DNA from: a virus
DNA: 41,111 nucleotides
Reading direction: 5' to 3' (one strand)
Virus record (IMG/VR): IMGVR_UViG_3300025289_000055
Span: 1 to 41,111 of that record
Below are positions 3,491 through 40,180 of this stretch, one piece after another. Numbering within the stretch: the first letter of the stretch is position 1; every line of letters begins with the position of its first letter. Both the position numbers and the translations under genes were made by a program. The notes under the pieces are model-generated. The model was not told the DNA's origin and did no database searches. It saw only the letters and a program-made list of their open reading frames with translations.

Positions 3491-3745
3491 ATGGCTAAAG
3501 CATTAGAGTTTTCTGAACAGATTTACGTTTTATGGGACGATGAGGATGATCCTAAGTTTGCTACTCTTTTGTGCTTTAGGGACGCTAAAGAGTTACAAAG
3601 TTTTACAGCAGATGATTTTACAGGAGAGGGTAGGAAGGTAGCTATATATAAATTGGTAGAGCAGGGAACGATGAAGACGGAAGTAAAAATAGCTATCGAG
3701 ATTGATGATCCTAAAAAGGCTAGAGCTAAGAAGGATGTAGTATAG
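3491..3745 (+). CDS. hypothetical small protein
   Basis: An 84-residue protein with TAGGAGG ahead of the ATG. It has an acidic loop (WDDEDDPK) and alternating hydrophobic strands, and ends in a basic tail (KKARAKKDVV). It is not recognised. It is separated from the previous gene by 26 bases and nearly touches the next. Confidence 0.5.
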   Translation: MAKALEFSEQIYVLWDDEDDPKFATLLCFRDAKELQSFTADDFTGEGRKVAIYKLVEQGTMKTEVKIAIEIDDPKKARAKKDVV

Positions 3746-3746
3746 A

Positions 3747-4127
3747 ATGTTGTATAATTCTCTAACAGAAAAAGAAAGACAAGAGTGCATAGCCGAGGGG
3801 ATGAAGCGAGAAAGAGAAATATGGCAGGGCTTCATCCTCGGCATGTCCTTTCCAGAGGATGTTAAGAAAGCCTGGGAGGAGTACGGAAATGGAGGCGAAC
3901 TATCAGCAGATGATGCTGCCCTATGGATTTCTGGATTACTACAAGAACGTAAGAGACTTAGGGCCATAATTGTAACCCTTTCAAGTAGACTACAGAATGC
4001 TAAGGATGATCGTGTATACTTAGCTTATTGGCTTACCAAGAAATTACGTATATCAAATGATGTTTTATTTAAGGCTATCGTGGACGCTAGAAAAATAATG
4101 AGAGAGCGGAGAAAAAATGAAGATTAA
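3747..4127 (+). CDS. hypothetical helical protein
   Basis: A 126-residue protein, strongly charged and predicted almost entirely helical. It carries KERQECIAEGMKRERE near the N-terminus and a basic C-terminus (ARKIMRERRKNED). No known domain is recognised. It starts one base after the previous stop and overlaps the next gene by 11 bases. Confidence 0.5.
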   Translation: MLYNSLTEKERQECIAEGMKREREIWQGFILGMSFPEDVKKAWEEYGNGGELSADDAALWISGLLQERKRLRAIIVTLSSRLQNAKDDRVYLAYWLTKKLRISNDVLFKAIVDARKIMRERRKNED

Positions 4128-12063: not shown

Positions 12064-12072
12064 GAGAAATTG

Positions 12073-12960
12073 ATGTCTAAACCGCTGGATAAGGAGAAGG
12101 AAATATTTTCTGTGGTATCGAGTGGAATTTATACTCTGGATCGTGCTCTCAATGGAGGCATGCCTCTAAGAAGTATCTACGAGATATATGGGTATACCAA
12201 TTCTTGTAAGAGTACTCTAGGGTATCATCTTGCTGGGGTTGCGGCAAGGGCTAAGTGTACGCTGATTGCCGACTTCGAGCATTTCGATCCTAACTATCTT
12301 GAGGCTGCTATTAGAAATGCTGGAGGATCGGGTCCTATAGAAATGGCTGATACCGACGATGGAGAATCTGCTGTGGGAGATATCAGGGACGCCCTAAAGG
12401 ATACCACATTTGGGTCTGTTATGCTAGATAGTGTTGGTGCCTTGATTCCAAAGGTCGAGTTAGAGGGTAAGGTTACAGATGCCAACATGGGAGTAAAGCC
12501 CAGGCTCATGGCTAAGATGATGCGTTATGCTTTGTATGGACTCAAGCGCAATAATGAGTGTATATTTCTTATTATCAATCATCTTCACCCTATCATGTCA
12601 TTAGGTTCTGGTGCTGCATCAACATCTGGAGGAGTAGCTATCCACAACAATTCCCATGTACGACTAAAGCTAAAGGCATTTGAGAAGGAAATAGAGTATC
12701 GTATTACGGAGGGTAAGGTTGATAAGTGTAGGTATGGCGGCGAGGGCGGCACATTCAGGTTTGCATCCGTAACTGGCCTGGGCATCCACCTGGGACTCAC
12801 AGCCGTTGTAGAGTGTCAATGGTTGGGCTTGGTAGACGAAGGAAGGACTGTAAAGCTAGATGGTAAGAGCTACGGATATCTAAAGAATTTGGTAACTGAG
12901 GCCGCATCTGGAAATGATGAGGTATTCCAGCCCTTTAGGAATAAATTACATGTCGTATAA
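12073..12960 (+). CDS. UvsX/RecA-like recombinase
   Basis: A 295-residue RecA-fold protein. The P-loop reads GYTNSCKS at residues 40-47: the usual last Gly is Cys45, and K46-S47 are kept. T4 UvsX likewise lacks that Gly (GPSKSFKS), which supports a UvsX-like assignment. Walker B is VMLDSVGALIP. The DNA-binding loop L2 region is visible as IINHLHPIM, then ASTSGG, then SHVRLKL, parallel to RecA. Role from the family: strand exchange and recombination-dependent replication or repair. ATG 12073 is chosen over TTG 12070 because TAGGAGA (12061-12067) sits at a good distance. A RuvC-like gene follows. Confidence 0.85.
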   Translation: MSKPLDKEKEIFSVVSSGIYTLDRALNGGMPLRSIYEIYGYTNSCKSTLGYHLAGVAARAKCTLIADFEHFDPNYLEAAIRNAGGSGPIEMADTDDGESAVGDIRDALKDTTFGSVMLDSVGALIPKVELEGKVTDANMGVKPRLMAKMMRYALYGLKRNNECIFLIINHLHPIMSLGSGAASTSGGVAIHNNSHVRLKLKAFEKEIEYRITEGKVDKCRYGGEGGTFRFASVTGLGIHLGLTAVVECQWLGLVDEGRTVKLDGKSYGYLKNLVTEAASGNDEVFQPFRNKLHVV

Positions 12961-13561
12961 TCATAGCTCTTTGGTAAGTTTGGGGTACCTTAAAGATGGG
13001 CAGGCTAAGAGGCTAGAGGATGCTGTGCTGAAACAGATATGGGATATTGATAGGTTTATGGAAATGGTACCGGAGGCATCTATAGCATCTTATCGAGGTC
13101 ATGTGGTGGTATTCCCGCAACCTATACTTCCAGAGGGCGGTATAGGAGCCGATCCAGGGGTACACCTTGGGTTAGCTTTTATTGAGGGTGGAGATACTGC
13201 ACATACGTTACGGCTATTTATCGAAAGGGGAGGCATTTCATCTGCCGATCTTCTATCTATTTTCTATAACGTACCTGTATTGTTCAATGGTAACGTATCA
13301 AAGATTACTCCTGTAGTTGTAGAGGGAGCGGCCTACGATGCTAAGTACGGTCAGCCCCTACTTGGAGAAATACGAGCGGCCCTAATTCTGGGGTTTTATA
13401 ATGCAGGATTTGAAAGCGTAATAGAAATGCAGCCTACTCAAATACGTCTTAGGGTATTTGGGTCTGGGGCTATCCAGCCTCTTAGTATTTGGAAGGACTT
13501 TATGAAAGTAGAAAAGGATGAAGCAGACGCCTTGAGCATGGCTATAGCCGCTGGAAGTTAG
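12950..13561 (+). CDS. RuvC-like Holliday junction resolvase
   Basis: A 203-residue RNase H-fold nuclease. The four catalytic acids of RuvC are matched: D68 in IGADPGVHLG, E125 in VVVEGAAY, and D190/D193 in DEADALSMAIA. Family role: paired cuts at Holliday junctions, here probably resolving branched replication intermediates before packaging. ATG 12950 is preferred over 12914 because AGGAA precedes it and the extra residues lack any motif. The first ~60 residues are an extension before the RuvC core. It overlaps the recombinase gene by 11 bases. Its TAG stop codon is the first part of the palindromic operator. Confidence 0.8.
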   Translation: MSYNHSSLVSLGYLKDGQAKRLEDAVLKQIWDIDRFMEMVPEASIASYRGHVVVFPQPILPEGGIGADPGVHLGLAFIEGGDTAHTLRLFIERGGISSADLLSIFYNVPVLFNGNVSKITPVVVEGAAYDAKYGQPLLGEIRAALILGFYNAGFESVIEMQPTQIRLRVFGSGAIQPLSIWKDFMKVEKDEADALSMAIAAGS

Positions 13562-13603
13562 AACACCTGTTCTATTGACATGATCCTATTTGGGGTATAT
13601 AAT
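13559..13603 (+). promoter_or_regulatory. palindromic operator plus consensus sigma70 promoter
   Basis: TAGAACACCTGTTCTA at 13559-13574 is a perfect inverted repeat (7-base arms, 2-base centre). It contains GAAC-N4-GTTC, the form of Gram-positive LexA boxes. TTGACA follows at once (13575-13580), then a 17-base spacer and TATAAT (13598-13603): both hexamers are perfect. The gene at 13626 starts 22 bases after the -10. A repressor bound here would cover the -35. Confidence 0.8.
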
Positions 13604-13625: not shown

Positions 13626-13988
13626 ATGGATGAAGCTGAGGCCCGTTATATTATTAGTAGTTTTTCAGATGCTAAGTCGTATCTTACCTGTAAGAAATAT
13701 CACGGCATGTATCTAAGGAGGGACCCATCCATCAATAAGGAGTCATATGCTTGTACTATAGTTGGTAACATAGATTCGGATGGCGTTGTAAATGTACTTA
13801 AATTTGGTATTGGGATAGATCTGGTAGCGGAAGTAACTAAGTGGAATACTCATTTTTTAGATAAGTTCATTTCAAATAAAAACTATATTGGTGAAGGATG
13901 GAGTCTGTGTACAGAGGCACAATTTAACGAAGCTGCCACTTCGTTCATCAACCATTTTTTAGGTATTATAGCTAAAAAACCTGACTGA
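13626..13988 (+). CDS. hypothetical protein, first gene of promoter block
   Basis: A 120-residue protein, not recognised. It is the first gene behind the strongest promoter in the window and begins 22 bases after the -10 element, with AGAGGATGG as ribosome site. It contains YLTCKKYHGMYLRRDP and a hydrophobic C-terminal helix (SFINHFLGIIAKK). If the palindrome is an SOS-type or repressor operator, this protein is its first product, but the sequence does not identify its function. Confidence 0.5.
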   Translation: MDEAEARYIISSFSDAKSYLTCKKYHGMYLRRDPSINKESYACTIVGNIDSDGVVNVLKFGIGIDLVAEVTKWNTHFLDKFISNKNYIGEGWSLCTEAQFNEAATSFINHFLGIIAKKPD

Positions 13989-13996
13989 GGAGATAA

Positions 13997-14245
13997 ATGT
14001 CTAAAAGAGGCAGACCTAAAAAAGAAGTAGTACGTTCTTATGAGAACATCGAATTCAAGGTCAACCATGTATATAAGCGTAAGTGTGCCGAATGCGATGT
14101 GGTGGGTGGATTGCATTATTACTATCCATATCTAAAGGGGGAGGATGTTAAGGCCGGAGCATTACTGTGTGATGCTCATAGACAGGTGGAGCCAGAGTTT
14201 ATAGACGATGTGCGCCTTGTACAGGTAGAATATGCCGAAACATAA
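13997..14245 (+). CDS. AT-hook and zinc-knuckle miniprotein
   Basis: An 82-residue protein. The N-terminus SKRGRPKKE has the RGRPKK core of an AT-hook, a minor-groove DNA-binding motif. A CAEC pair (about residues 29-32) and CDAH (about 57-60) form a possible CxxC...CxxH zinc site around a KGxLLCDAH-like turn. AGGAG precedes the ATG. Function unknown; DNA binding is inferred. It is the second gene behind the operator-controlled promoter. Confidence 0.5.
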   Translation: MSKRGRPKKEVVRSYENIEFKVNHVYKRKCAECDVVGGLHYYYPYLKGEDVKAGALLCDAHRQVEPEFIDDVRLVQVEYAET

Positions 14246-14855
14246 TAATTTTTTTCATCTTGACGATTACCATAGCCAACAATTTCTTAGCTGGAAACTC
14301 CCAGAGGGATGGTGGAGCAGACAGTATGAATATGCTTGGGCTTATTCGTTCTTGGATGACGGAGACATATCAGCCGATCTTGGTACAGGATATACATTCA
14401 GGCCATTTCGGCATGCCCTATCAATAGCGAGTAAAACTGTATATGCTATTGATGTGCATGTATCGGAGGACATAGATAGGTTTGCGCCAAACATGCATTT
14501 TATACAGGGAAGTTTTGTAGGCAGGCTTCCACTTGTGAATGACTCCATTGATAAGGTATTTTGTATTAGCGTACTTGAGGACGTTATAGGACTAGAAGAA
14601 ATGGGGCATGCACTAACAGAAATGAAAAGGATCGTTACTAAAGAGGGCCAGATTGTACTAACTTTTGATGTTCCGTATGATACTGATAAGCCACAACACG
14701 CACTATACAAGGGTGTGGATTTATCTAAATTCATTGCCACAGTAGATAGGGTTGGATTAAGATCGGATCAGCCCTTCTACAAAGAGTATAAGAAGGATAG
14801 GCTGTATAACCATGAATATAATCTTTGCGTATATCATTGTGTACTGAGGAAATAG
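14232..14855 (+). CDS. class I SAM methyltransferase, sugar-cluster type
   Basis: A 207-residue Rossmann-fold methyltransferase. SADLGTGYTFRPF is motif I. YAIDVH is the acidic strand, and GSFVGRLPLVNDSIDKVFCISVLEDV is the usual motif II/III region of Methyltransf_11 proteins. There is no NPPY or DPPY motif, so the target is probably a small molecule or sugar and not a DNA base. The next gene begins at its stop codon (TAGTG). Its position at the head of the glycosyltransferase block suggests O-methylation of a glycan; this is inference. Confidence 0.7.
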   Translation: MPKHNNFFHLDDYHSQQFLSWKLPEGWWSRQYEYAWAYSFLDDGDISADLGTGYTFRPFRHALSIASKTVYAIDVHVSEDIDRFAPNMHFIQGSFVGRLPLVNDSIDKVFCISVLEDVIGLEEMGHALTEMKRIVTKEGQIVLTFDVPYDTDKPQHALYKGVDLSKFIATVDRVGLRSDQPFYKEYKKDRLYNHEYNLCVYHCVLRK

Positions 14856-15769
14856 TGGACCGTCAGGAGCTTAACCATCGCATATATAGAGCCTGTTTTT
14901 GGCTTACTAAAAATGAATGCGCTCATGGTGGTGTGGCTGGAGACCAAGGCGGACTGCCCTACCCGGAAGTATCTGGGTATCTAATACCCGCTATGCTTGT
15001 ATTTGGCCTAGACGCTATGGCCTACCGTTCTGCCGATTGGTTAATAGATACTCAATGTCTAAAGTGCGGCGGCTGGCCCGGATGGAAAGAGAACAATTGT
15101 GAGAATGGGGGAGAATGCAGAGCCTTTGATACGTCTGCCGTTGTAGAGGGGTTGATGTACATAAGACAAAAGAATAATCTGATTACAGATAGATACTACC
15201 AGGCAATAAATACAGCCATAGATTGTTTGCTATCAATGCGTATTACTACGGACCAATCCTTGCAGTATATAGGCGTATCCAAAGCTGGAACATCCATGCA
15301 GGCATATAATCTTCGAAGTGCATCAATATTAAATGGCGGATATAGCGCATGGGCGCATCGTATTAGCAATACGAGGTGGGCATTTAACAACCCGGAAAGA
15401 ATACATTATATAGCCTATGCCTTGGAGGGCCTAAAAAAGATAGGACTTATGGATGAACATGAAAAAGTATTAAGCCAGCTAAGAGGACTACCCAGACCCT
15501 TTAATTGGTCCTATTATAGCGGTCCTGATGGATCAATACTTCCAACACAAACTGCTCTTTGTACTGTGGGTAACTTTCAAATGGCAATACAGCTTAATGA
15601 TGTTGAATTATTCGATTGGGCAGCTAGATCACAAACATCGGGTGGAGGATTTCCCTCTACACTTAATGGTAATTCTGTAACTAACGGTATGGAGATAGAT
15701 GAAATCTCTTGGCCCATTAAGTATTTCCTTGAGGGAGCTACATATTTCTATGGGGCGGGATTAAAATGA
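14855..15769 (+). CDS. alpha/alpha-toroid-like protein of sugar cluster
   Basis: A 304-residue protein with a GTG start at 14855 overlapping the previous stop; GAGG lies at a suitable distance. Repeated helix pairs with GG-containing turns (GGLPYPEVSGYLIPAM, QCLKCGGWPGW, LNGGYSAWAHR, GGGFPST) point to an alpha/alpha toroid, the fold of six-hairpin glycosidases and terpenoid cyclases. A Cys-rich patch (CLKC, then CENGGEC) may bind metal. Relatives with this GGLPYPEVSGY style occur in polysaccharide gene clusters, as far as I can recall. A role as glycan hydrolase, lyase or epimerase is possible; the catalytic residues cannot be assigned. Confidence 0.5.
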   Translation: MDRQELNHRIYRACFWLTKNECAHGGVAGDQGGLPYPEVSGYLIPAMLVFGLDAMAYRSADWLIDTQCLKCGGWPGWKENNCENGGECRAFDTSAVVEGLMYIRQKNNLITDRYYQAINTAIDCLLSMRITTDQSLQYIGVSKAGTSMQAYNLRSASILNGGYSAWAHRISNTRWAFNNPERIHYIAYALEGLKKIGLMDEHEKVLSQLRGLPRPFNWSYYSGPDGSILPTQTALCTVGNFQMAIQLNDVELFDWAARSQTSGGGFPSTLNGNSVTNGMEIDEISWPIKYFLEGATYFYGAGLK

Positions 15770-16620
15770 ACAGCGATATAAAAGTACTCGAACGAGAGCA
15801 TAGCGCATTCGATGTTAGCATAGATGCCTGGAAACGGGATAAGCCTCATGGCATTAGCGGATTGTTTCGCCTAAAGGATGAGGGACAATTCATGGAAGCG
15901 GCAATACTCTCGCATCTTCCCTGGCTAGATGAGGCCGTATTATTGGTACAGGAATCTAAAGATAATACCATTGACAAGGCCGTTGATCTACGTAACCGCT
16001 TTCCCAGTAAGATACGCATAGAGTGCTATCCATTTAATGTACATCCAATAGGGTCACAAGGGCATTTTGACTCACCAGATAATTCCGTATATACTATGAC
16101 GCATCTTACAAACTACGGAATTTCCATGTGCAGATACTCATGGGTAGCCAAGATAGAGGGCGACGTAATAGCTCTACCTACTTTTCAGCTAATTAAGGAC
16201 CTTGTTGATATGTTTCCGAATGAGCTACATCATTATGGAAGGGTAGGATTAAATCTTGCCGGACCAAACCTAGATATGATCTCTATGACTAATCCAAGGA
16301 ATGCGGGGTGGGATGAGTCTGTGTTCAATAATAAACCAGATTTCCATTGTGTGAAATCGGGTAAGTGGGAAAGTATAAATATGTCCGACTTTAGGAATGA
16401 CCCCGGTGTAATGTACTGCCCAGGCTTTAGCTTTATACACACAAAAAGATGTAAAGTCGGTAAGACGCCGGGATTAGAAGCATGGGCACCCTTTACAGAG
16501 GAGAATACTAGAAAGGCTTTGGAGGCATATGGCAGAGAACATCCCTATCCAGGTGGAGATAAAGATTATTGCCCCGCCTTTATTTTCGACGGAGACTGGA
16601 GGAAATACCTGCCCTACTGA
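15766..16620 (+). CDS. glycosyltransferase-like protein (GT-A fold)
   Basis: A 284-residue protein. The start GISGLFRLKDEGQFMEAAILSHLPWLDEAVLL, then QESKDNTIDKAVDL, matches the N-terminal nucleotide-binding half of GT2-like enzymes that begin with an SxxxRxKDEG motif. KIEGDVIA at about residues 128-135 is in the place of the metal-binding DxD. The C-terminal half has FSFIHTKR and PYPGGDKDYCPAF, possible acceptor-site elements. It starts at ATGA overlapping the toroid gene. It probably transfers a sugar within the same pathway. Donor and acceptor are unknown. Confidence 0.7.
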   Translation: MNSDIKVLEREHSAFDVSIDAWKRDKPHGISGLFRLKDEGQFMEAAILSHLPWLDEAVLLVQESKDNTIDKAVDLRNRFPSKIRIECYPFNVHPIGSQGHFDSPDNSVYTMTHLTNYGISMCRYSWVAKIEGDVIALPTFQLIKDLVDMFPNELHHYGRVGLNLAGPNLDMISMTNPRNAGWDESVFNNKPDFHCVKSGKWESINMSDFRNDPGVMYCPGFSFIHTKRCKVGKTPGLEAWAPFTEENTRKALEAYGREHPYPGGDKDYCPAFIFDGDWRKYLPY

Positions 16621-16813
16621 GGAGCAAGAGCTTGATAGAATTATGCATGCTATAGAGAGGTTTGGGGACAAATGCTCTTGCGAAGCCGTAATGATAAAAG
16701 TTATAAAAAGGACCGACGGTGTTATAGAATATGTCTATACACTTTCTTCTATGCATATGTGTCCAGAACATGGGACCCAATCTACATTTGTTATTGAATA
16801 TGGTATCGAATGA
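16529..16813 (+). CDS. small Cys/His protein overlapping glycosyltransferase gene
   Basis: A 94-residue protein. It has CSC (about residues 49-51) and CPEH (about 78-81), a possible zinc site. ATG 16529 has GGAGG just upstream but makes a 92-base overlap with the glycosyltransferase gene, long for this genome. ATG 16643 would give a 56-residue protein that keeps all the Cys and His residues but lacks a ribosome site. Function unknown. Confidence 0.4.
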   Translation: MAENIPIQVEIKIIAPPLFSTETGGNTCPTEEQELDRIMHAIERFGDKCSCEAVMIKVIKRTDGVIEYVYTLSSMHMCPEHGTQSTFVIEYGIE

Positions 16814-16814
16814 C

Positions 16815-17036
16815 ATGCGCATAACTATATGCAAATTAGGAATACATAAATGGGTCAGGCTGTGGCCTGCAAGACCGGGGTATAGGTTCTGTTTCCACTG
16901 TGCAAAGGCCCAGATGCAGGTAGATTCCTATCTCAGTGGTGGAAGTAGTTTTGAAACTTTGGATAGCGTGGAAGACCTTGTTAGGCGTTTTCGTGCCATT
17001 AGGCATTATGATATAATGGGATATAAGCATGGCTGA
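16815..17036 (+). CDS. zinc-ribbon miniprotein, DUF1660-like
   Basis: A 73-residue protein. The start ICKLGIHKW, followed by RPGYRFCFHC, is the pattern of small phage zinc-ribbon proteins such as DUF1660 (Cys, His, then CxxC). ATG 16815 places this motif at the N-terminus as in relatives; ATG 16800 is an in-frame alternative. No clear ribosome site is visible for either, so translation may be coupled to the gene ending at 16813. Function unknown. Confidence 0.5.
   Translation: MRITICKLGIHKWVRLWPARPGYRFCFHCAKAQMQVDSYLSGGSSFETLDSVEDLVRRFRAIRHYDIMGYKHG
17009..17017 (+). promoter_or_regulatory. extended -10 promoter candidate
   Basis: TGATATAAT: a perfect -10 hexamer (17012-17017) with TGn. No clear -35 is present. 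It lies 12 bases before the ATG at 17029, so a transcript would have little or no leader and would mainly serve the genes from 17309 on. Confidence 0.3.
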
Positions 17037-17307
17037 AAAGGGACATAACTATTTCTTTGGGGGGTGGCCTGAGGCACCCTGGAAAAGGGAAAAGCTAGAT
17101 ATGGTAAAATATATAGATCAGGAATGTGGGGAAATAGCCTTCTTCAAGACAGGCATACCGTGGTCATTTGGCGACCCTATTTACGCTAGTGATGTAGTTC
17201 TGTTGGATGGTACTACACCCGATCAATTTTCCCCCATTGTATGCGGATCATGTGGTAGGCATTTGAATATTCTTGAATTACGTTATGAGCCTACTAGAGG
17301 AGATTAG
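17029..17307 (+). CDS. zinc-knuckle protein, unknown function
   Basis: A 92-residue protein. It has an aromatic N-terminus (HNYFFGGWPEAPWKRE) and a C-terminal CGSCGRHLNILEL, a zinc-knuckle-like CxxC with nearby His; a further Cys occurs at about residue 33. It is not recognised. It overlaps the preceding gene by 8 bases and leads into the next at a one-base gap. Confidence 0.45.
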   Translation: MAEKGHNYFFGGWPEAPWKREKLDMVKYIDQECGEIAFFKTGIPWSFGDPIYASDVVLLDGTTPDQFSPIVCGSCGRHLNILELRYEPTRGD

Positions 17308-17308
17308 T

Positions 17309-17491
17309 ATGTCAAGGCCGACCGAAAAATGGGAGCGTAGAGAAAAGAAAATAGAGAAGCGCCGAAGAGGCATGGTAGTAGACGGCAAGAGCGTTAAGCT
17401 ACTAGAGGAGCTTTCAGATAAGCGTACCTTAGACATACTTAAGAAAAAGGATGATAGATTTGAGGGCAAATCTATTGGCAAAGAGGAATAG
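17309..17491 (+). CDS. small highly charged helical protein
   Basis: A 60-residue protein with alternating Lys/Arg/Glu blocks (EKWERREKKIEKRRRG and KRTLDILKKKDDR), predicted helical, with no Cys. ATG 17309 is chosen because AGAGGAGA precedes it. A longer frame from 17273 overlaps the previous gene without a ribosome site. Function unknown. Confidence 0.45.
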   Translation: MSRPTEKWERREKKIEKRRRGMVVDGKSVKLLEELSDKRTLDILKKKDDRFEGKSIGKEE

Positions 17492-17495
17492 TATT

Positions 17496-18278
17496 GTGAA
17501 TTCATCCAGTCTCGAAAAATATGATCTAACTAATAAGCCATGGTCATCCGGCGGTACGGCGCTTGTTATAGGCAATGGTCCATCTGCCAATATATTTTTC
17601 AAACAATTTCCTTGGTTATTTCAAAAACTTAAAAAGAGTTTTCCTGGTGGGTATAGTATAATAAGAATATTTATTTGTAATGATATAAGTAAACTACCAA
17701 AAGAAACGGCTAAAAAATTTGGGGATGCCTACAGGCCCTATACTACCCTAGTAGCCGTGTCTACCGCCTTTAATGATATTGACTACACACGAAAAGTATT
17801 ACATACCAATATGGCTAATCATGTTATTTCTAGTACAGAAACGTTTGATACCATTAGAGAGGTTATGTTAGAGGACGGGGGTCTAAAAAATTCCCTACGT
17901 TGGCATTCAGTATATGGTGTGGAGGAAAGTCCCATATCGTTTAACATGCGTCCACCTTTTTGTAGTTTTGCTATGTCACATTTAGTTACGTTTCAATTTA
18001 TAGCTATGACTAATTTTAGCAACGTACTGTTGGCAGGTTTTGATCTTGGGTATAAGCCATTGAACGCAGATGGAACCGACCCTAACCATTTTAGTAGTAA
18101 TTACTGGGGAGAGGATAAAATAGATAAGTTCACCACAGAGTATCTTAAGAGAATGGAAGAGGATCAGATGATTGCTCATTCTATGGTTTACGCCAACATG
18201 AAACGCAGAGGGATAAATGTATACAATACTACAAGAGGCCCATTGGATGCCTTTTATGGGGAGACGAGCATATGGTAG
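17496..18278 (+). CDS. DUF115/MptE-like Rossmann protein
   Basis: A 260-residue protein starting at GTG 17496 behind AGAGGA. The glycine loop ALVIGNGPSAN (G26 to S30) is the hallmark of DUF115/MptE-like proteins. Later, FCNDIS-like (IFICNDISKL) and VLLAGFDLGYKP segments also fit. Family knowledge: members include archaeal 6-hydroxymethylpterin pyrophosphokinase and bacterial Maf proteins that transfer nonulosonic acids such as pseudaminic acid to flagellin. Among glycosyltransferase genes, the Maf-like sugar-transfer role is more likely here. The motif resemblance supports the family but not the substrate. Confidence 0.65.
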   Translation: MNSSSLEKYDLTNKPWSSGGTALVIGNGPSANIFFKQFPWLFQKLKKSFPGGYSIIRIFICNDISKLPKETAKKFGDAYRPYTTLVAVSTAFNDIDYTRKVLHTNMANHVISSTETFDTIREVMLEDGGLKNSLRWHSVYGVEESPISFNMRPPFCSFAMSHLVTFQFIAMTNFSNVLLAGFDLGYKPLNADGTDPNHFSSNYWGEDKIDKFTTEYLKRMEEDQMIAHSMVYANMKRRGINVYNTTRGPLDAFYGETSIW

Positions 18279-19075
18279 GCTATGATCCCCGGTATAGGAT
18301 AGCAGTCATTATACCTAACTATAATATGCCAGAAGCGGCAGATGCAATAGTAGGTAGGATTAGGGCCAGTAGCGACGAGAGAATGTACGACCTCTTTTTA
18401 GTGGATAATGGCTCTGACCTAGTGGCCCCAGCTAAAAATACTACTGTCCTTTTGCCCACAAATTGTCAAACTACGGGCGCTATTCTTTGTGGAATGGCAG
18501 CAGCAGACCGGCATGTTAGAGATAATAAGTTAGAGCATGATTATATTGCTTATTGGATAATAATTACTAGCACTACACTATTGGAAGACACAGACTACAT
18601 TTCCTTTGGTATAAATTTAATGTCTACCAATAAAAATTTTGTTGGGCTCATGCCGACACTTACCGTAAAAAGTACGTCCGCATGGAAACATTTATTTACT
18701 AGAAAAGCTAATGCGGCATATCCCCGTAAGGTATTTTTAAGGTATGTTTGGATGCTGGATAATATAGCTACATTCTGGAGAAAGGATTGGCTAGATAGTA
18801 TAGGCAGGTTTGACCCAAAACTTACATATGCCTGGGGCATAGACCTGGAAGCCAGCTACTTAGCTAGACAACAAAATAAGGCACTGTTAGTTAGTGATTG
18901 GTTAAACGTAACTAAAACTACTGATATTGGGTATTACATGAGTAGAATGAATATGTCTGCTGATGATCGTAGAACAAAGGCTTATGCTAATATGAAAGAA
19001 ATACTTAGTCAAAGGTACGGCCCGGATTGGGAATACAAGATGAGAAACGAAAACGTAAAAGAGGAATGGAGATAA
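18272..19075 (+). CDS. family 2 glycosyltransferase
   Basis: A 267-residue GT-A protein. IAVIIPNYNMPEAADAIV, then YDLFLVDNGSD, is the classical GT2 nucleotide-sugar-binding start. TTGAILCGMAAADRHV follows, as in GT2 enzymes. In the middle, FDPKLTYAWGIDLEASYLA resembles the acceptor-site ED/DxE region. A canonical DxD is not obvious (IIITSTTLLED is in its place), which is a departure from the family. It overlaps the DUF115-like gene by 7 bases. Confidence 0.78.
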   Translation: MVGYDPRYRIAVIIPNYNMPEAADAIVGRIRASSDERMYDLFLVDNGSDLVAPAKNTTVLLPTNCQTTGAILCGMAAADRHVRDNKLEHDYIAYWIIITSTTLLEDTDYISFGINLMSTNKNFVGLMPTLTVKSTSAWKHLFTRKANAAYPRKVFLRYVWMLDNIATFWRKDWLDSIGRFDPKLTYAWGIDLEASYLARQQNKALLVSDWLNVTKTTDIGYYMSRMNMSADDRRTKAYANMKEILSQRYGPDWEYKMRNENVKEEWR

Positions 19076-19079
19076 AAGA

Positions 19080-19952
19080 ATGATACAGGATGACACCATA
19101 GAGGGCGGAGAGCTTAGACCAATAGTAGTACAATGCCCGCACTGTCTAGGTAAAATACCGCTTGAGATTAGACGGCCACACAATCTTGAAGACTCTGTAG
19201 TACTGGCAAACGGAGAGCGTAAGAATAGCATGGAGCTTTCTATTTTGTGTGTTACTAAGGCCGAAAAACGTACAGAGCCGTTTCTACTTAAGATGAGGAA
19301 TGCCGCAACCACTCTAGGCGCTCAGCTTGTATTAGCCTTCGATAGTATTGACGGCTCAGATAACCTTTCAAGATGCTATGAGTATGCTGATATGACCGCT
19401 ATTATGAAGTCATCTGGATACGTAGAAAGTATCCTACAAGAGGCTCATAGGTTCTGTCAGGGAACATGGATTCTTAGAATAGACGATGACGAGGAAATAT
19501 CTCCAGCGATGATGGAATGGCTCAAAAATAGGGAGTACATGATTGGAGGATCGCAAATATGGAGCTTCCCTACGGCGGCATTGTGGCCTGATGATATGCA
19601 CTTTATTACCAATCCGCCGCTGTGGCCCGACTACCACCCACGTTTATTTACTTGGAGATATAAGGACTGGAGGGAGGATGTGCATGCCGGAGCGCCCTAC
19701 GGCTTAGGAACAACGGCTCCGGTATCTATATTGCACCATAAATATATCGTAAAATCGTTTGAGGAAAGAGTAAAGATTTACGAAGAACGGGATGTTGCGA
19801 AGATGGGCGATAACGCATATGCACACATGCCCTTTACCCTTCCTGAGAGGTTCTTCAAGAGCATGAATGTCCTACAGGTAGCCAGGGGCAGGGTTGACAA
19901 TGCCGATTCTATTTGTAATGCTGGACAGAATACGGAAATCGTGCTAATATAG
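19080..19952 (+). CDS. glycosyltransferase with N-terminal zinc knuckle
   Basis: A 290-residue protein. CPHC at about residues 19-22 sits in an N-terminal extension of ~50 residues. The GT-A domain then begins with ELSILCVTKAEKR. RIDDDEEIS at about residues 137-145 supplies the metal-binding acidic motif of GT2 enzymes. YHPRLFTWRYKDWREDVHAG is typical of the acceptor loop of GT2 relatives. The zinc knuckle may come from fusion with one of the CxxC miniproteins nearby; this is speculation. It is the last gene of the sugar block before the membrane protein. Confidence 0.72.
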   Translation: MIQDDTIEGGELRPIVVQCPHCLGKIPLEIRRPHNLEDSVVLANGERKNSMELSILCVTKAEKRTEPFLLKMRNAATTLGAQLVLAFDSIDGSDNLSRCYEYADMTAIMKSSGYVESILQEAHRFCQGTWILRIDDDEEISPAMMEWLKNREYMIGGSQIWSFPTAALWPDDMHFITNPPLWPDYHPRLFTWRYKDWREDVHAGAPYGLGTTAPVSILHHKYIVKSFEERVKIYEERDVAKMGDNAYAHMPFTLPERFFKSMNVLQVARGRVDNADSICNAGQNTEIVLI

Positions 19953-19976
19953 TAGTATCCTTATAAGGAGGAACAC

Positions 19977-20351
19977 ATGAATTTTGACGAGTTTGTGAAA
20001 GCACTTGCTCTGAATCTGGACACTGTTCTTGCCCTGTCGGCCTTTATGGCCCTTGGGGTAGGTGCAATTGTGCAGGCGCTCAAGGTCTTCCGGGTGGTTA
20101 AAACGGAGGAATGGGCAGGGCGGGCGGCTATGATTGTAGCAGGCGTAGAGGGCGTTCTAGTTGTCCTCGGATACGTTTTCCCCGCATTCGTGCCGTTTGG
20201 GTTGATCGTATACGGTACGGCCCTGTCAGCCGCAAGCTCCGGGCTAGGCTACAAGTATGTGGCAAAGCCAGGACTCGAAAAGCTCTTTGGAAACCTGTTC
20301 TCTGTTTCTGATTTGAATAACGAGCCGCTTGTTATTAAGAGCAAGAAATAA
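19977..20351 (+). CDS. membrane protein, holin candidate
   Basis: A 124-residue protein with three hydrophobic stretches: about residues 16-38, 49-68 and 70-90. The C-terminus is charged and ends in KSKK. Ribosome site AAGGAGG is near perfect, and the gene uses more GC-ending codons (ctg, gcc, gtc) than its neighbours, like the capsid gene, which suggests high expression. Size and topology suit a holin or other phage membrane protein. However, the endolysin lies on the other strand with its own small membrane partner. A stem-loop follows the stop codon. Function is uncertain. Confidence 0.45.
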   Translation: MNFDEFVKALALNLDTVLALSAFMALGVGAIVQALKVFRVVKTEEWAGRAAMIVAGVEGVLVVLGYVFPAFVPFGLIVYGTALSAASSGLGYKYVAKPGLEKLFGNLFSVSDLNNEPLVIKSKK

Positions 20352-20365
20352 TCTAGGGTACTCTA

Positions 20366-20389
20366 GGGCCGGTTGTAACAGACCGGCCC
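20366..20389 (+). terminator. GC-rich stem-loop after membrane protein gene
   Basis: GGGCCGGT (20366-20373) and ACCGGCCC (20382-20389) form a perfect 8-bp stem with loop TGTAACAG. It lies in the 63-base gap between the membrane protein and metallophosphoesterase genes. No T-run follows, so it may be an RNA-stabilising hairpin or a factor-assisted terminator. Confidence 0.5.
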
Positions 20390-20414
20390 AACCTAACTTA
20401 GGAGAAAACAAACA

Positions 20415-21233
20415 ATGAGTGATATACTAGAACCTACAGATGTCCAAGAAGATCAAGTAAAAGGCAAGAAGAGGCTATTGATTGTCTCTGACTTCCATTG
20501 TGGGCATGAGGTAGGTCTAACTCCACCTGACTGGAATGTTATGGTGGGACACAACGATCCTATGCATGAGTACAGAGAAATTTTGTATAATAGCTTTAGT
20601 AGAATGGTAAATTTGTATAGGCCGTTCGATGTGTGCGTTGCAAATGGGGACCTGATTGATGGACGTGGAGAGAAGTCAGGCTCTACAGAATTAATCGTTG
20701 TTGATCGCCTCAAGCAGGCTAAGATGGCGACCGATATCCTTAAGTTTATCAATGCTGATAAACTGTACATTACTAGAGGCACAGACTACCACGTAGGTAA
20801 TACCGAATCCTTTGAGGACATAGTAGCTGCCGATGCTGGCGCTCTTAGGATAGGGGATATAGTTAATTTGAATATCAATGGCACTATCTTTAACTTTAGG
20901 CATCACATAGGAAGCTCTCAGACTCCTATCGGTAGGGCTACCCCACTGGCTAGGGAGATCGTCTGGAACGAGTTATGGAATCTGCGCAAGGGTTTTGTTC
21001 TTGCTAATGTACAGGTACGATCTCATGTACATTATCATACCTATGTAGGGCAACCTAATCATGTTGCTCTGACTACGCCCGCTCTGCAAGGCTACGGTAC
21101 ACGCTATGGGGAACGTAGAATGAGCGGCATAATTGACTTTGGCATTACCGTTTTCGATATTGATGAGTATGGTAGATATACTTGGGGGTCTGAGATTGTA
21201 AACTTTCCTACTGTTGCACCAGAGATAGTGTAA
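20415..21233 (+). CDS. calcineurin-like metallophosphoesterase
   Basis: A 272-residue protein with the metallophosphoesterase metal ligands in order: SDFHCGH (D26, H28), ANGDLIDG (GDxxD), RGTDYH in place of GNHD/E, a lone His pair in FRHHIG, and SHVH in place of GHxH. The family hydrolyses phosphomonoesters or diesters with two metals. Phage members are often annotated as phosphoesterases or nucleases of unknown substrate. The first ~18 residues form an acidic extension. GGAG precedes the ATG at a 10-base spacing. The gene is flanked by stem-loops on both sides, which suggests it is expressed as its own unit. Confidence 0.75.
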   Translation: MSDILEPTDVQEDQVKGKKRLLIVSDFHCGHEVGLTPPDWNVMVGHNDPMHEYREILYNSFSRMVNLYRPFDVCVANGDLIDGRGEKSGSTELIVVDRLKQAKMATDILKFINADKLYITRGTDYHVGNTESFEDIVAADAGALRIGDIVNLNINGTIFNFRHHIGSSQTPIGRATPLAREIVWNELWNLRKGFVLANVQVRSHVHYHTYVGQPNHVALTTPALQGYGTRYGERRMSGIIDFGITVFDIDEYGRYTWGSEIVNFPTVAPEIV

Positions 21234-21269
21234 TGAATTGGCATAGAGTAAGCGTGCCAGAAGTTTTAC

Positions 21270-21291
21270 AGGGCGTCGATTGGGACGCCCT
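21270..21291 (+). terminator. terminator-like stem-loop
   Basis: AGGGCGTC (21270-21277) and GACGCCCT (21284-21291) form an 8-bp perfect stem with a 6-base loop, followed by TTC. It lies between the metallophosphoesterase stop and the ATG at 21314. The short T-run makes it a weak intrinsic terminator or attenuator. Confidence 0.55.
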
Positions 21292-21313
21292 TTCAGATAG
21301 AGAGGAGACTAAA

Positions 21314-21535
21314 ATGGCAGACGTTGTATTAGTAAGAGACCTGGCTACATACTTTGATAGAGACAGGAGTAGCTTTTCAAAACTTCTTAAGCGCAATGGA
21401 ATACAAACAGTAGAGGTTCTGGATGTAAAGACTGACCAGAAAGTTAAGGCTATTACTAAGGAGGATGCTATCAGGGTAGCAAAGCTCCTAGAGCCTGAGC
21501 ATGTTGTACTCGATCCTAGTGAGGTTTTAGAATAA
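21314..21535 (+). CDS. small putative DNA-binding protein
   Basis: A 73-residue protein. ATG 21314 is preferred: GAGGAG (21301-21306) precedes it, and a stem-loop lies just upstream. ATG 21233, overlapping the previous stop as TAATG, would give 100 residues but puts the stem-loop in coding sequence. LVRDLATYFDRDRSSFSKLLKRNGI looks like a helix-turn-helix, and TKEDAIRVAKLL is a second helical element as in MerR-like winged helices. The acidic C-terminus touches the next ATG (AATAATGG). It may be a small regulator. Confidence 0.5.
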   Translation: MADVVLVRDLATYFDRDRSSFSKLLKRNGIQTVEVLDVKTDQKVKAITKEDAIRVAKLLEPEHVVLDPSEVLE

Positions 21536-22176
21536 TGGCCGGAGACTATGTTCTTAGCTGTGTAAAGGGAATCAATGCCGATCTGTTTCCCCATATCCTA
21601 AAGCTATATGTGCCGGAAGGTTCTGTAGTGTTGGATGCTACCTATGGTCTGGGGGCCTTTTGGAAGAACGTAGATACAAGTAAATATGATCTATACAGGA
21701 ATGATAAACATTTAGGAAGAGGCACCTACCACTACGACCTAACAAAGCTCCCCGTAAATTGGGACAACTGGTTTAATGCCGTAGTACTTGATCCCCCATA
21801 TCTGTATGTAGGCGGATTTAGAACCTTGAAGGATAGCATAGATAAGGGCTACCAGAACGCCGCCAGAGCCCTTGTGGACGGAATCTATGGGGTTGCGGCA
21901 GTAGATGCCCTATATTATGCGGGCATGAAAGAGGCACATAGAGTACTGGACGCTAATGGTATTCTAATAGTCAAGTGTATGGATCAGGTAATGAGTGGAA
22001 AGCAGGAATGGGGGCATATCAAATACCATAACTATGGTACGGAGCTAGGCTTCAAGGCAGAAGATTTGTTTGTTCTAATGCAGAATGGGCAACCTACCAT
22101 GAGGCATAAGCCGGAACAACAAAAGCATGCTAGACGTAACCATTCGTACTTTCTTGTAATGAGGAAAAAGAAATGA
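21535..22176 (+). CDS. DNA methyltransferase with DPPY motif
   Basis: A 213-residue class I methyltransferase. Motif I is VVLDATYGLGAFW (V31-W43), and catalytic motif IV is DPPY at 86-89. ANGILIVKCMDQV and SYFLVMRKK are the usual later strands. DPPY is found in adenine-N6 and cytosine-N4 enzymes. There is no separate recognition domain, so the target site is unknown. This is a second DNA methyltransferase besides the NPPF enzyme at 10728; no cognate endonuclease is next to it. Protection of phage DNA from restriction is the likely role. Confidence 0.78.
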   Translation: MAGDYVLSCVKGINADLFPHILKLYVPEGSVVLDATYGLGAFWKNVDTSKYDLYRNDKHLGRGTYHYDLTKLPVNWDNWFNAVVLDPPYLYVGGFRTLKDSIDKGYQNAARALVDGIYGVAAVDALYYAGMKEAHRVLDANGILIVKCMDQVMSGKQEWGHIKYHNYGTELGFKAEDLFVLMQNGQPTMRHKPEQQKHARRNHSYFLVMRKKK

Positions 22177-22700
22177 TCTATAACGAGAAAAAGGATATAC
22201 TATTAGACCTTGTAGACCAATCGCCGGATGGGCTTGTCGTAGAGATAGGCTGCATTCGCTATGCATCCGAAATGAGCAGTGAGGGTTTCAGTACCTTCTA
22301 TCTTGCTAAATACTGCCATGTAAATGGCCGGGTGTTCAGGAGCTTTGATAATATTTTAGATCATGTAGAGTTAGCTAATAGCATACTAAAGGAACGGGGC
22401 CTGCCGGAATCTGTAGTATGCAAAGACGGTTTGTATGCATTAGAGGAATTACGGGACGGTGCAATAGGTTTTCTGTATTTGGACTCATCGGATAATCCAG
22501 TGGATACCCTAAATCAGTACCATGCAGCTAAGGATAAACTTGTGCATGGGTCTATCATATTGATAGACGATGCTCACACCTACTGGGCAGGGGAGTATGG
22601 AAAGGCAACATATCTTATCAATGAGCTTGGACTAGAGAATGTAGAGCTTGTTGATGTAGGCCAGTCATACCGATCCTGTATAGTGAGAAAGGGGATTTAG
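22173..22700 (+). CDS. class I methyltransferase-like protein
   Basis: A 175-residue Rossmann-fold protein. LVVEIGCIRYASEMSSEGFSTFYLAK is a motif I region (ExG), and GRVFRSFD is the second strand. GAIGFLYLDSSDNPVDTLNQY followed by GSIILIDDAHTYW matches the Methyltransf_24 pattern (LDxxHxY...GG...DD), with the usual His replaced. Members are O-methyltransferases acting on sugars or small molecules. It starts 4 bases before the end of the DNA methyltransferase gene. It may complete the glycan-decorating set. Confidence 0.6.
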   Translation: MIYNEKKDILLDLVDQSPDGLVVEIGCIRYASEMSSEGFSTFYLAKYCHVNGRVFRSFDNILDHVELANSILKERGLPESVVCKDGLYALEELRDGAIGFLYLDSSDNPVDTLNQYHAAKDKLVHGSIILIDDAHTYWAGEYGKATYLINELGLENVELVDVGQSYRSCIVRKGI

Positions 22701-22701
22701 A

Positions 22702-22950
22702 ATGAGTGGACTTATGGTATTCGGCTTTATCCTTAGTGGTACCACTCTCCTAGTAAATGCAGGACTGGGCTGGAGTAGGGGAGCATGGTGGGTATGGGGA
22801 TTGCATACCATTAATGCTACTGCATGGCAGGTATACGTTATGCAGCCGGGAATGGAATCTGCATTAGGAATATCCGCATTGAATATCGTTACCATATGCG
22901 TAGATATAGTATCCGGCATTAGAGCATGGAGGAGACGAAATGAGAAATAG
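22702..22950 (+). CDS. small two-helix membrane protein
   Basis: An 82-residue protein with two hydrophobic segments, about residues 3-25 (including WW-rich GAWWVWGL after it) and 55-72. The C-terminus is basic (RAWRRRNEK), so positively charged residues probably face the cytoplasm. Start ATG 22702 follows GAAAGGGG. Function unknown. It could be an antiholin or an envelope protein. It overlaps the next gene by 11 bases. Confidence 0.5.
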   Translation: MSGLMVFGFILSGTTLLVNAGLGWSRGAWWVWGLHTINATAWQVYVMQPGMESALGISALNIVTICVDIVSGIRAWRRRNEK

Positions 22951-23089
22951 AAACGGATCGAGAATAGGAATAAAAAGATGCCAGTCATGTGGCTGGCATT
23001 ACGTGGGGAAGCAGCATGTATGCCCAGAAACTAAATGGGCACCGACTACCTATGAAGCTAAGGGCTGGAAGTCCACACGAAAACGATAA
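22940..23089 (+). CDS. 49-residue zinc-finger miniprotein
   Basis: A short gene that automated length cut-offs may miss. GGAGGAG lies 5-6 bases before ATG 22940. The product is basic and contains CQSCGWHYVGKQHVC at residues 14-28, a compact CxxC...HxC zinc site with further His residues, and ends in KSTRKR. It overlaps the preceding gene by 11 bases. Its stop at 23087-23089 directly abuts the stop codon of the convergent minus-strand gene. Function unknown. Confidence 0.6.
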   Translation: MRNRNGSRIGIKRCQSCGWHYVGKQHVCPETKWAPTTYEAKGWKSTRKR

Positions 23090-23320
23090 CTATACCCTAG
23101 AAGCTAGATTTACAACCAAGGTTATTACAGAGGCTACCGTTGCACCTACGAGTAGCCATTTTAGTTTATTCATACCAGCTATAAACTGCTCGGTATCTCT
23201 GACACGCTCTAACATGCCGGGCTTATCGGGTTCGTTAAGGCTTCCCAATAGTACATAAGTTATATGATCTACCTTATCTTCTATACGAGAAAGCTGTTCG
23301 TGCTCTGCTTTCGTTGCCAT
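23090..23320 (-). CDS. XhlA-like holin / endolysin partner
   Basis: A 76-residue protein. The N-terminal part is a charged helix (EHEQLSRIEDKVDHITYVLLG), suited to a short coiled coil. The C-terminal 22 residues (KWLLVGATVASVITLVVNLAS) form one transmembrane segment. This is the layout of XhlA/hemolysin-type phage proteins of Gram-positive hosts, which work beside the endolysin. Its start overlaps the last base of the endolysin gene, and it is the last gene of the minus-strand operon. A true holin usually has two or three membrane segments, so it may be an accessory. Confidence 0.6.
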   Translation of the reverse strand: MATKAEHEQLSRIEDKVDHITYVLLGSLNEPDKPGMLERVRDTEQFIAGMNKLKWLLVGATVASVITLVVNLASRV

Positions 23321-33316: not shown

Positions 33317-33342
33317 TGATAATTACTCCAGTATAATTTCTT

Positions 33343-36933: not shown

Positions 36934-37782
36934 TTACGCCGGTGCCGTAGCATCATGCGTGATTTTTACGCCGAAGGCATTGCGTCGAATACCAACTGCA
37001 TATCCGGCACTCATGTTGAGTTCCCAGGCGCGCAAGGAAGCGTCCCGCTCTGGTTCGAGTAGAGGAGCCTTGCGACTATCGAAGGCGATGGACTGAGGGT
37101 TAAAGAGCGCCCCAACAGCGTCATCACTGGCATCGACAGATATATTTGCACTTGTAAACCAAGCCGTAGCACCGAGCCAGCGCCCAACGAAAAACGAGCG
37201 CAGGGCCTCATTGGCTATATCGCCTTGCCAAGCAAGGTTCGATGCCGGAGTGCCGAGCAGGTCCCAAATGTCGTGCCATCCGTAGGGATGTAGAACAACG
37301 TACAGAGGATTTGGAGCAAGGGCGTTCCGCAAAAGCGAAATGCCTGCCGCAACCTTATCAATGGTCAATGCAGTGTTAGCAGTGCCTACACCAGTCGTGA
37401 AACTGGAGAAGGTACCAACTAGGTCCACATCAATCTTGGTAGCGATTGCGTTTCCAAGTTCGAGCGATGCGTCACGCCGAGCATCCTCAGGATCGGTTTC
37501 AATCCTGCGATCCGTTAGGACTACCTGAGCCATAACTTCACTCGGAGTAAGCGTTGCAGCGGTGGACTTCGAGAACGTTGTGGGGTTCGCGTAGTCTTCG
37601 GCTTCTGCTACTGCTTCTGCCGCTACCTGTGCATACTCTGGAATAACCCTATTCATCCAACCACGGGCTGAATAGTTTGTGACCAGTGCGGTCATCAGGT
37701 TATTCTCACGCGCTACGAACATGGAATCCTCGAAGATGGTATTAAACAGACTGTTGAGGTCTGCTTGAGTAGAATAAGCCAT
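36934..37782 (-). CDS. major capsid protein, HK97 fold
   Basis: A 282-residue protein. Features of HK97-fold capsids: a helical N-terminal arm (QADLNSLFNTIFEDSMFVARENNLM), a spine region with EVMAQVVLTDRRIETDPEDARRDASLELGNAIATKID, and an A-domain (PNPLYVVLHPYGWHDIWDLL). The end, RAWELNMSAGYAVGIRRNAFGVKI, is the usual last strand. Codons are distinctly GC-rich (gcg, cgc, gtc) against an AT-rich phage background, a sign of selection for high expression. The scaffold gene precedes it, and there is no protease gene in view. A start with GGAGTC-type ribosome site is present. Confidence 0.86.
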   Translation of the reverse strand: MAYSTQADLNSLFNTIFEDSMFVARENNLMTALVTNYSARGWMNRVIPEYAQVAAEAVAEAEDYANPTTFSKSTAATLTPSEVMAQVVLTDRRIETDPEDARRDASLELGNAIATKIDVDLVGTFSSFTTGVGTANTALTIDKVAAGISLLRNALAPNPLYVVLHPYGWHDIWDLLGTPASNLAWQGDIANEALRSFFVGRWLGATAWFTSANISVDASDDAVGALFNPQSIAFDSRKAPLLEPERDASLRAWELNMSAGYAVGIRRNAFGVKITHDATAPA

Positions 37783-37803: not shown

Positions 37804-38517
37804 TTACGAGTTTTCTTCTTTTATAATTCTTTGAACGCCTCGGCCTTTCCAGAATTCGTTACCCTGTTGGCCGAAATATTCACTTCTGCGTTCTTGTTCC
37901 GTCTTACCCTCCGAACCTTTTGGATCGTTGGGATTAGCAGGGCTAGTCGAAGAAACTGCCTTACGTTTTAGAAACGGATATTGCTCAGCAAGAGAAGCAA
38001 GGGCTGCTTCCACACCTTCAACGGTGCCGTCATCGCTGACGATAACTCCAGAGCGATCTAGAAGCCGAAAGGCTACTTCCGCATCTTGGAATCTACCGGC
38101 CGCCAAAGCCACTACCGAGGACTTTAGAAGCGCCTCTTTCGCTTTAACAGTTAGCTCTTTATTCCCTTGTTCTAGGGAGCTTGCTAAACTTCTGGCATCT
38201 TCCAATTCGGAATTCAGCCGTTCAAGCTCCGTCATTTTTTCTTGTGCGCTTGTTTTCTGTGCTTCTACAGCGGCTACCAATTCTTCGACCGTTTTTACAC
38301 CGGCCTTGCCCAAAACCTCGGCATATGCTTTCTTAGTAGCTGCGTCCCGCGCCTCTTGCCTTATTTTACCAGCCAGCTTATTAAAGTCATCTTGGCTGAT
38401 CGTTTTATCGCCCGCTAACCCTTCCGGCGTCGAAGTAAGTTCGTCCTCAAGTTCCTTATCAGTCTCAACAGGGTCGGAGTTTATACCCTCATCCGGGGAG
38501 GTAGCCTGTTTAGCCAT
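37804..38517 (-). CDS. capsid scaffolding protein
   Basis: A 237-residue protein, strongly charged, predicted largely helical. The central coiled coil spans about residues 75-130 (AQEKMTELERLNSELEDARSLASSLEQGNKEL). The N-terminal ~40 residues are acidic and disordered (SPDEGINSDPVETDKELEDEL). The C-terminus is basic, ending with RGVQRIIKEEN, likely to bind the capsid. Family role: guides procapsid assembly and is then lost or cut. AAGGAGA precedes the ATG. A TTGACA promoter with a palindrome lies just upstream. Confidence 0.82.
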   Translation of the reverse strand: MAKQATSPDEGINSDPVETDKELEDELTSTPEGLAGDKTISQDDFNKLAGKIRQEARDAATKKAYAEVLGKAGVKTVEELVAAVEAQKTSAQEKMTELERLNSELEDARSLASSLEQGNKELTVKAKEALLKSSVVALAAGRFQDAEVAFRLLDRSGVIVSDDGTVEGVEAALASLAEQYPFLKRKAVSSTSPANPNDPKGSEGKTEQERRSEYFGQQGNEFWKGRGVQRIIKEENS

Positions 38518-38546: not shown

Positions 38547-38590
38547 ACATTAGCACATATTCCGAATTATGTCAAATTGAACAAGTGTTC
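38547..38590 (-). promoter_or_regulatory. second palindromic operator with TTGACA promoter
   Basis: On the minus strand GAACACTTGTTC (38590-38579) is a GAAC-N4-GTTC palindrome. Three bases later comes TTGACA (38575-38570), a 17-base spacer, then TAATGT (38552-38547) with TGC before it. The -10 is weak but extended. It precedes scaffold and capsid genes by 30 bases and overlaps the last codons of the GIY-YIG gene. Confidence 0.65.
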
Positions 38591-39025
38591 TAGTCTCTCT
38601 TGCCTTCTTTTAGCCCTGGTTTCTGGAGAAGTTTTATAGTGCCGTCCAATTCTGCCCCCTCCATGTCCCTTACCCTTACGATTCTTAGACATCTTAGCTC
38701 TAGTTTCTGCCGAGTGGGTCGCACCTAGACCCGGAGATCGGGCCGTACCCTTGGCATTGTATTCTGGTTTTAGGAAATCTAAGGCCCGCTGTTCAAATAA
38801 CAAACAATTGTTTGGATCACATAAAAATAATATATCAAACCTAAAAGCCCCCGCCCCATATTTATTCCATGAACGCTGTAAATAGGAGGTATGATGCGTT
38901 CCAGTATTTAGTCTATATTTATGCTCAGAAAATCTACGCTCTAAAGCAGTAGAAGAACCTACATAGGACTTGCCATTAGCCTTATTAGTTATCCTATATA
39001 TACCAGAAGAATATTTATTTTTCAT
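38567..39025 (-). CDS. GIY-YIG homing endonuclease
   Basis: A 152-residue nuclease. GIY at residues 8-10 and YVG at 21-23 give the name; ERRFSEH holds the catalytic Arg and the later FEQRALDF the metal-binding Glu. The C-terminal THSAETRAKMSKNRKGK and TSPETRAKR repeats are NUMOD3-type DNA-binding segments. It is a free-standing homing endonuclease set between a tiny basic gene and scaffold. Its last codons (EHLFNLT) run through the palindromic operator and the TTGACA. Direct repeats flank the gene, which records its insertion. Confidence 0.88.
   Translation of the reverse strand: MKNKYSSGIYRITNKANGKSYVGSSTALERRFSEHKYRLNTGTHHTSYLQRSWNKYGAGAFRFDILFLCDPNNCLLFEQRALDFLKPEYNAKGTARSPGLGATHSAETRAKMSKNRKGKGHGGGRIGRHYKTSPETRAKRRQERLEHLFNLT
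38570..38608. repeat. direct repeat copy A flanking GIY-YIG gene
   Basis: Begins TGTCAAATTGAACAAG on the plus strand. It matches copy B (39032-39070) at 14 of the first 16 bases, and both carry TCTCTTGC further on. The repeat carries the -35 hexamer and one palindrome arm. Confidence 0.7.
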
Positions 39026-39031
39026 CTAAAC

Positions 39032-39070
39032 TGTCAAGTCGAACAAGCATTACCGTCTCTTGCGCCGTCT
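39032..39070. repeat. direct repeat copy B flanking GIY-YIG gene
   Basis: Begins TGTCAAGTCGAACAAG on the plus strand. It covers the 3' end of the small basic gene and includes TTGACA on the minus strand, but the second palindrome arm has decayed (CATTA in place of TGTTC on the plus strand). Confidence 0.7.
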
Positions 39071-40146: not shown

Positions 40147-40180
40147 TATAAAAGAATAACCTTTACGTCATCTATTATCA

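Follow-up and report, generated by a model that had tools for sequence, protein, structure and literature searches.

LexA-form palindromes adjoin two promoters of a tailed phage, one of them opening the capsid operon

The virus record analyzed here, a linear stretch of 41,111 bases with 43% G+C that we call the window, carries two exact GAAC-N4-GTTC palindromes, the form of the Gram-positive-type LexA (SOS) box. Each lies 2-3 nt upstream of the TTGACA hexamer of a sigma-70 promoter, in the sense direction and before a gene block, and the second of these blocks starts with the scaffold and capsid genes. In the reading that we prefer, and to which we give about an even chance, a LexA-type dimer, probably the LexA of the host, represses these two distal or late promoters and is removed upon DNA damage or replication of the phage.

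The first 13.5 kb of the plus strand encode replication and recombination functions (RNA ligase, primase, DnaB-like helicase, DNA polymerase, UvsX and a RuvC-like protein). The block behind promoter 1 is co-directional, runs from 13626 to 23258, comprises several methyltransferases and genes without family (Table 1), and meets the minus-strand block convergently at 23.3 kb. An earlier note on this DNA had placed sugar genes (glycosyltransferases) behind promoter 1. We could not retain this assignment: Pfam, PHROGs, NCBIfam and PDB give only methyltransferases there, and the sole glycosyltransferase match (35229-36434) is on the opposite strand. Promoter 2 opens the head, tail and lysis genes, including a GH25 endolysin. 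The sequence could be extended on one side only, where contig L120 adds 7.4 kb past the window end. This extension encodes a ClpP-like protease and a Mu F-like protein. Right behind the window end (L120 1659-4189) are eight tRNA genes, with small ORFs and a gene for an HNH endonuclease among them. The extension also encodes a small predicted lipoprotein (L120 1106-1501) with a strong match (1.4e-48) to a PHROG labelled recombination directionality factor, a label that may differ from its function. Three near-identical sister contigs (L120-L122) lack around 950 bp of the window (39197-40147) with an ORF of 323 aa that belongs to no known family, which reads as an insertion/deletion polymorphism within the species. 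Among the genes scanned in the window and the extension (~48 kb), there was neither terminase nor portal. Hence, part of the genome is probably missing. We recognized neither an integrase nor a lysogeny module in the same sequences.

Table 1. Positions in the window of the two putative operator-promoter units and of the genes around them.
Feature	Position	Strand	Details
UvsX/RecA-like recombinase	12070..12960	+	phrog_97 3e-29; Pfam RecA 1.8e-24
RuvC-like resolvase	12914..13561	+	phrog_159 E 0.008 (weak family match); likely start 12950; next to UvsX also in relative L140
Operator 1 (putative)	13559..13574	+	TAGAACACCTGTTCTA, 7-bp arms, central CC; core GAACACCTGTTC at 13561-13572
Promoter 1 (predicted)	13575..13603	+	TTGACA 13575-13580, 17-nt spacer, TATAAT 13598-13603; predicted start ~13610
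First gene after promoter 1	13626..13988	+	120 aa, no family found
Class-I methyltransferase	14232-14855	+	promoter 1 block
DNA methyltransferase	21535-22176	+	promoter 1 block
Methyltransf_24	22173-22700	+	promoter 1 block
Major capsid protein	36934..37782	-	PHROGs match and relatives
Scaffold protein	37804..38517	-	first gene after promoter 2; PHROGs head scaffolding protein, E 3e-10
Promoter 2 (predicted)	38547..38575	-	TTGACA 38575-38570, 17 nt, TAATGT 38552-38547, extended -10 TGC; predicted start ~38540
Operator 2 (putative)	38577..38592	-	TAGAACACTTGTTCAA; core GAACACTTGTTC at 38590-38579; within last codons of GIY-YIG gene
GIY-YIG homing endonuclease gene	38567..39025	-	Pfam GIY-YIG 2.5e-9; PHROGs
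Right half of operator 2 with TTGACA, probable decayed copy	39032..39061	-	AAGAGACGGTAATGCTTGTTCGACTTGACA; 22/30 identical to sequence 462 nt downstream

We re-read the first unit (13559-13603, plus strand) and found the sequence and coordinates previously given for the palindrome, TTGACA and TATAAT to be correct. The palindrome had been described as a 16-base perfect inverted repeat; it does have 7-bp inverted arms, but its two middle bases (CC) are not symmetric. The 16-mer directly touches the TTGACA of promoter 1, and its core ends 2 nt before it. The centre of the operator is at -43.5 from the predicted start, given that the starts of both promoters were placed 7 nt after the -10, on which all our centring figures rest. 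The palindrome directly follows the UvsX/RecA-like and RuvC-like genes, as had been proposed, and its first bases overlap the stop codon of the latter; the UvsX assignment comes from phrog_97 and Pfam RecA, while the RuvC match is weak. Downstream of the promoter, the ATG at 13626 is preceded by a purine-rich ribosome site. Operator 1 is known from one record only. We rejected the possibility that its palindrome is a terminator, because it is not followed by a T run and is upstream of a promoter. TTGACA-N15-19-TATAAT occurs twice in the window, for 0.01 expected. The second occurrence, a perfect TTGACA-16-TATAAT at 33310-33337 (plus strand), lies between two tail genes of the minus strand, in a gap of 26 bp; we set it aside as it has no palindrome and its direction opposes the genes.

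The second site (38579-38590), overlooked in the earlier note, is, apart from the first, the sole GAACANNTGTTC of the window. Its minus-strand reading is TAGAACACTTGTTC-AAT-TTGACA-17-TAATGT, followed by AAGGAG and then by the start of the scaffold gene. Its core is 3 nt upstream of TTGACA, and its centre is at -44.5 from the predicted start. The site is unchanged in four near-identical contigs of the same species (L003-L006; 99.4-99.9% identity). Judged by its sequence, a late structural promoter of this phage carries a LexA-form box, a feature resembling that of phage GIL01 (see below).

To put these observations in perspective, GAACANNTGTTC is expected 0.024 times per window under a first-order Markov model, and GAACANNTGTTC-N1-5-TTGACA 5e-5 times, whereas each was observed twice. 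The GAACNNNNGTTC pattern was found twice in the window, compared with 0.33 times in shuffles. Scanning the window and the extension (~48 kb) for GAACA-NN-TGTTC beside TTGACA, as had been suggested, revealed two exact copies, both abutting promoters, and no scatter of copies at random coding positions. A degenerate third unit is present in L120 at 3737-3779, with the structure GAACAAACATTC (3737-3748)-TA-TTGACA-17-TATACT. It has two mismatches in the core and is only a candidate operator unit.

One might argue that these are chance palindromes, or remnants without regulatory role. The two promoters would then simply be good ones that stand where genes end, and the second palindrome would be tied to the insertion of the GIY-YIG gene. 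Both palindromes do overlap gene ends, and distant relatives lack them. Furthermore, the GIY-YIG gene sits between the intact and the probable decayed copy of the operator and -35, i.e., it is bounded by a direct repeat (22/30 nt) that includes the right half-site and TTGACA. On this strand, the window has no other direct repeat of that quality with its copies 300-700 nt apart. The gene probably entered at the capsid promoter. A GIY-YIG gene is also found in the relative G005 (L140 12997-13769), where it follows directly on the stop codon of RuvC, in the position that operator 1 has in the window. Yet, the two units share little outside the operator and the promoter hexamers, so that a recent duplication of one segment is not apparent. 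This, the excess of two units over 5e-5 expected, and the enrichment in other viral contigs described below all speak against chance or remnants, and we consider such an origin very unlikely.

We then turn to the relatives of the phage. The syntenic relative G005 (33 kb) has a capsid 78% identical to that of the window, a polymerase 46% and a RuvC 49% identical. The palindrome is absent from the matching places in G005/L140 and in other capsid relatives, all of which are distant. In L010 and L017, a TTGACA promoter without palindrome is found before the scaffold gene or at the matching place, which suggests that the promoter position is commoner than the operator. Searches of viral contigs with UvsX and the DNA polymerase gave no relatives, an alignment search with RuvC gave only an already known one, and megablast against phage records gave no match.

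The module itself is found elsewhere. We identified TAGAACANNTGTTC-N1-5-TTGACA in 35 stretches of IMG/VR viral contigs, against 2 for a permuted palindrome, the only control pattern used. By eye, the 35 stretches correspond to about two dozen independent contexts, including the present species. In several contigs (among others L091, L093, L104, L108 and L113), a complete -10 follows at 16-18 nt and the centring is again -43.5/-44.5; since these contigs were picked by the pattern, counts of their geometry are biased, and the permuted control provides the fair comparison. From these contigs, we conclude that the geometry of palindrome and promoter recurs in several unrelated phages. A 150 kb phage record (G023; L149 12764, 13707 and 14914) has 22 GAACANNTGTTC sites. 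In this record, one operator lies between the -35 elements of two divergent promoters that share it, and no LexA/S24 gene was detected.

The earlier note had assigned the core to the Gram-positive LexA (DinR) form, and both sites match GAAC-N4-GTTC exactly. Bacillus, Mycobacterium and Gram-positives generally (Firmicutes, Actinobacteria) have this LexA motif (PMC3323433), and the core is the same as in the known SOS boxes of this type (PMC3323433, PMC4234289), except that the genes behind the present putative boxes are viral. The statement that the window has no repressor gene is borne out as far as these families and the Pfam and PHROGs scans reach: LexA_DNA_bind and Peptidase_S24 (PF00717) were absent from the window and the 7.4-kb extension, and the Pfam and PHROGs matches there included no repressor. 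Hence, host LexA is the leading candidate for the binder, followed by a phage protein. We also searched for the host. Capsid homologues, all 37-39% identical, were found in 17 of 301 Chloroflexota genomes (L166-L169) and, in the phylum to which the Oscillospiraceae genome G036 belongs, in one of 299. Those of Chloroflexota are possibly prophages or gene-transfer particles. A scripted examination of the regions before the LexA-like genes of these capsid-bearing Chloroflexota, genes located through the S24 domain with UmuD as the family model, found no GAAC-N4-GTTC. A Ktedonobacterales genome does have such boxes beside its LexA-like genes. A scan of genome contigs gave six matches, three of them in Chloroflexota and none, by eye, before recA or lexA.

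A regulator of the phage itself, with LexA-like specificity and encoded in the missing part of the genome or by an unrecognized small gene, could bind both operators and time the late blocks without host LexA. Around 48 kb of the genome are known, and many small genes could not be assigned to a family. As terminase and portal are missing, a phage repressor could be missing too, which counts against host LexA. The 22 copies in G023, with divergent promoters on one operator and no detected LexA/S24, are also what one might expect of a dedicated regulon, although G023 could equally use host LexA. On the other hand, no helix-turn-helix or S24 regulator was found among the genes scanned in the window and extension, and the sequence closely fits the LexA box. 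We thus see a phage regulator as possible but only tentatively so.

In the preferred reading, the two matching units would govern two distal blocks: the plus strand from 13.6 to 23.3 kb and the minus-strand arm from the scaffold and capsid genes. The binder, a dimer of the LexA type and most probably host LexA, would occupy GAACA-NN-TGTTC ending 2-3 nt before the -35, and would sterically exclude sigma-70 RNA polymerase from an otherwise strong promoter. RecA, activated by DNA damage or by the replication and recombination of the phage itself, would then lead to LexA cleavage, and both blocks would be turned on together. The sequences show two sites that are placed alike and unlikely to be random, and the same module in other phages; we infer the binding, the identity of the binder, the repression and the coupling to SOS. 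The reading is favored by the position of both GAACANNTGTTC sites against TTGACA, far above expectation, by the conservation of site 2 within the species, by the excess in IMG/VR, and by the known LexA control of phage promoters in GIL01 and pBtic235. It is weakened by the lack of the palindrome in G005/L140 and the distant capsid relatives, by the single record of site 1, and by the lack of a recognized integrase or lysogeny module, which makes a host-LexA lock on late genes less expected. The position at -43.5 also suits a class II activator.

Such an activator, a LexA-family or other dimer touching RNA polymerase from around -43.5, is known in GIL01, a phage of Bacillus thuringiensis. There, host LexA controls promoters including the late capsid and lysis promoter, and at P3 the LexA-family activator gp6 uses a palindrome centred at -43.5 (PMC6182141), close to the -43.5 and -44.5 found here, where one of the operons downstream is also that of the capsid. 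The half-sites of the gp6 site (GaCACAnnTGTGaC) are however different, and there was no LexA_DNA_bind match in the window and extension (G000/G001, an incomplete genome). Consensus or near-consensus promoters need no activator. Promoter 1 has both consensus hexamers at 17-nt spacing and promoter 2 has TTGACA with an extended -10, so both should be strong unaided, which favors repression. We find activation rather unlikely. Of the proposal that host LexA or a similar repressor times the block, the LexA-form operator on a regulated promoter is well supported as a reading of the sequence, by the second copy at the capsid promoter and by the recurrence; host LexA is only the likeliest binder, ahead of a phage protein and an activator.

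The closest known systems differ from the present one in several respects. GIL01 P1/P3 (host LexA with gp7; activator gp6) also have GAAC-N4-GTTC-type boxes at a late capsid and lysis promoter, a palindrome centred at -43.5 and no dedicated phage repressor (PMC6182141, PMC4551915). But in P3 the LexA boxes are downstream of the -35, and the palindrome at -43.5 is that of gp6. GIL01 is a 15-kb tectivirus, whereas the present phage is tailed and has the LexA-form box itself at -43.5. The jumbo phage-plasmid pBtic235, likewise a tailed phage, has one LexA operator of the B. subtilis type, to which host LexA binds (PMC9700832). It is a known prophage, and its operator precedes an operon of seven ORFs whose function is another one than that of the capsid operon. 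In the CtrA-regulated phages ("lytic deferment"), sites for a host regulator at phage promoters arose independently in several lineages and a deferral of lysis was proposed (PMC9437464), but the regulator is another one, the signal is the cell cycle rather than DNA damage, and binding is experimental. Phages exploiting LexA are also known, with several independent origins (PMC9437464). The kind of system is thus already known, and the novel details are the LexA-form operator at the -35 of the capsid promoter and the recurrence of the module.

LexA control of phages has been documented for few systems (GIL01, pBtic235 and others). The fusion of a LexA-form operator to the -35 of a capsid promoter, repeated at equal spacing in several uncultured phages that are not related, provides a searchable signature for SOS-timed late expression, which a simple promoter assay can test. 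One may speculate, although we think it doubtful, that in a tailed phage without lysogeny genes the host SOS repressor directly controls both the capsid operon and a second distal block, so that the damage or replication signal of the infection itself would be the late-gene clock, an SOS form of lytic deferment, and that the same module arose in several unrelated environmental phages. With a switch of the DNA-damage type before two strong promoters, one of them driving the capsid genes, the timing of the life cycle may partly follow the damage response of the host.
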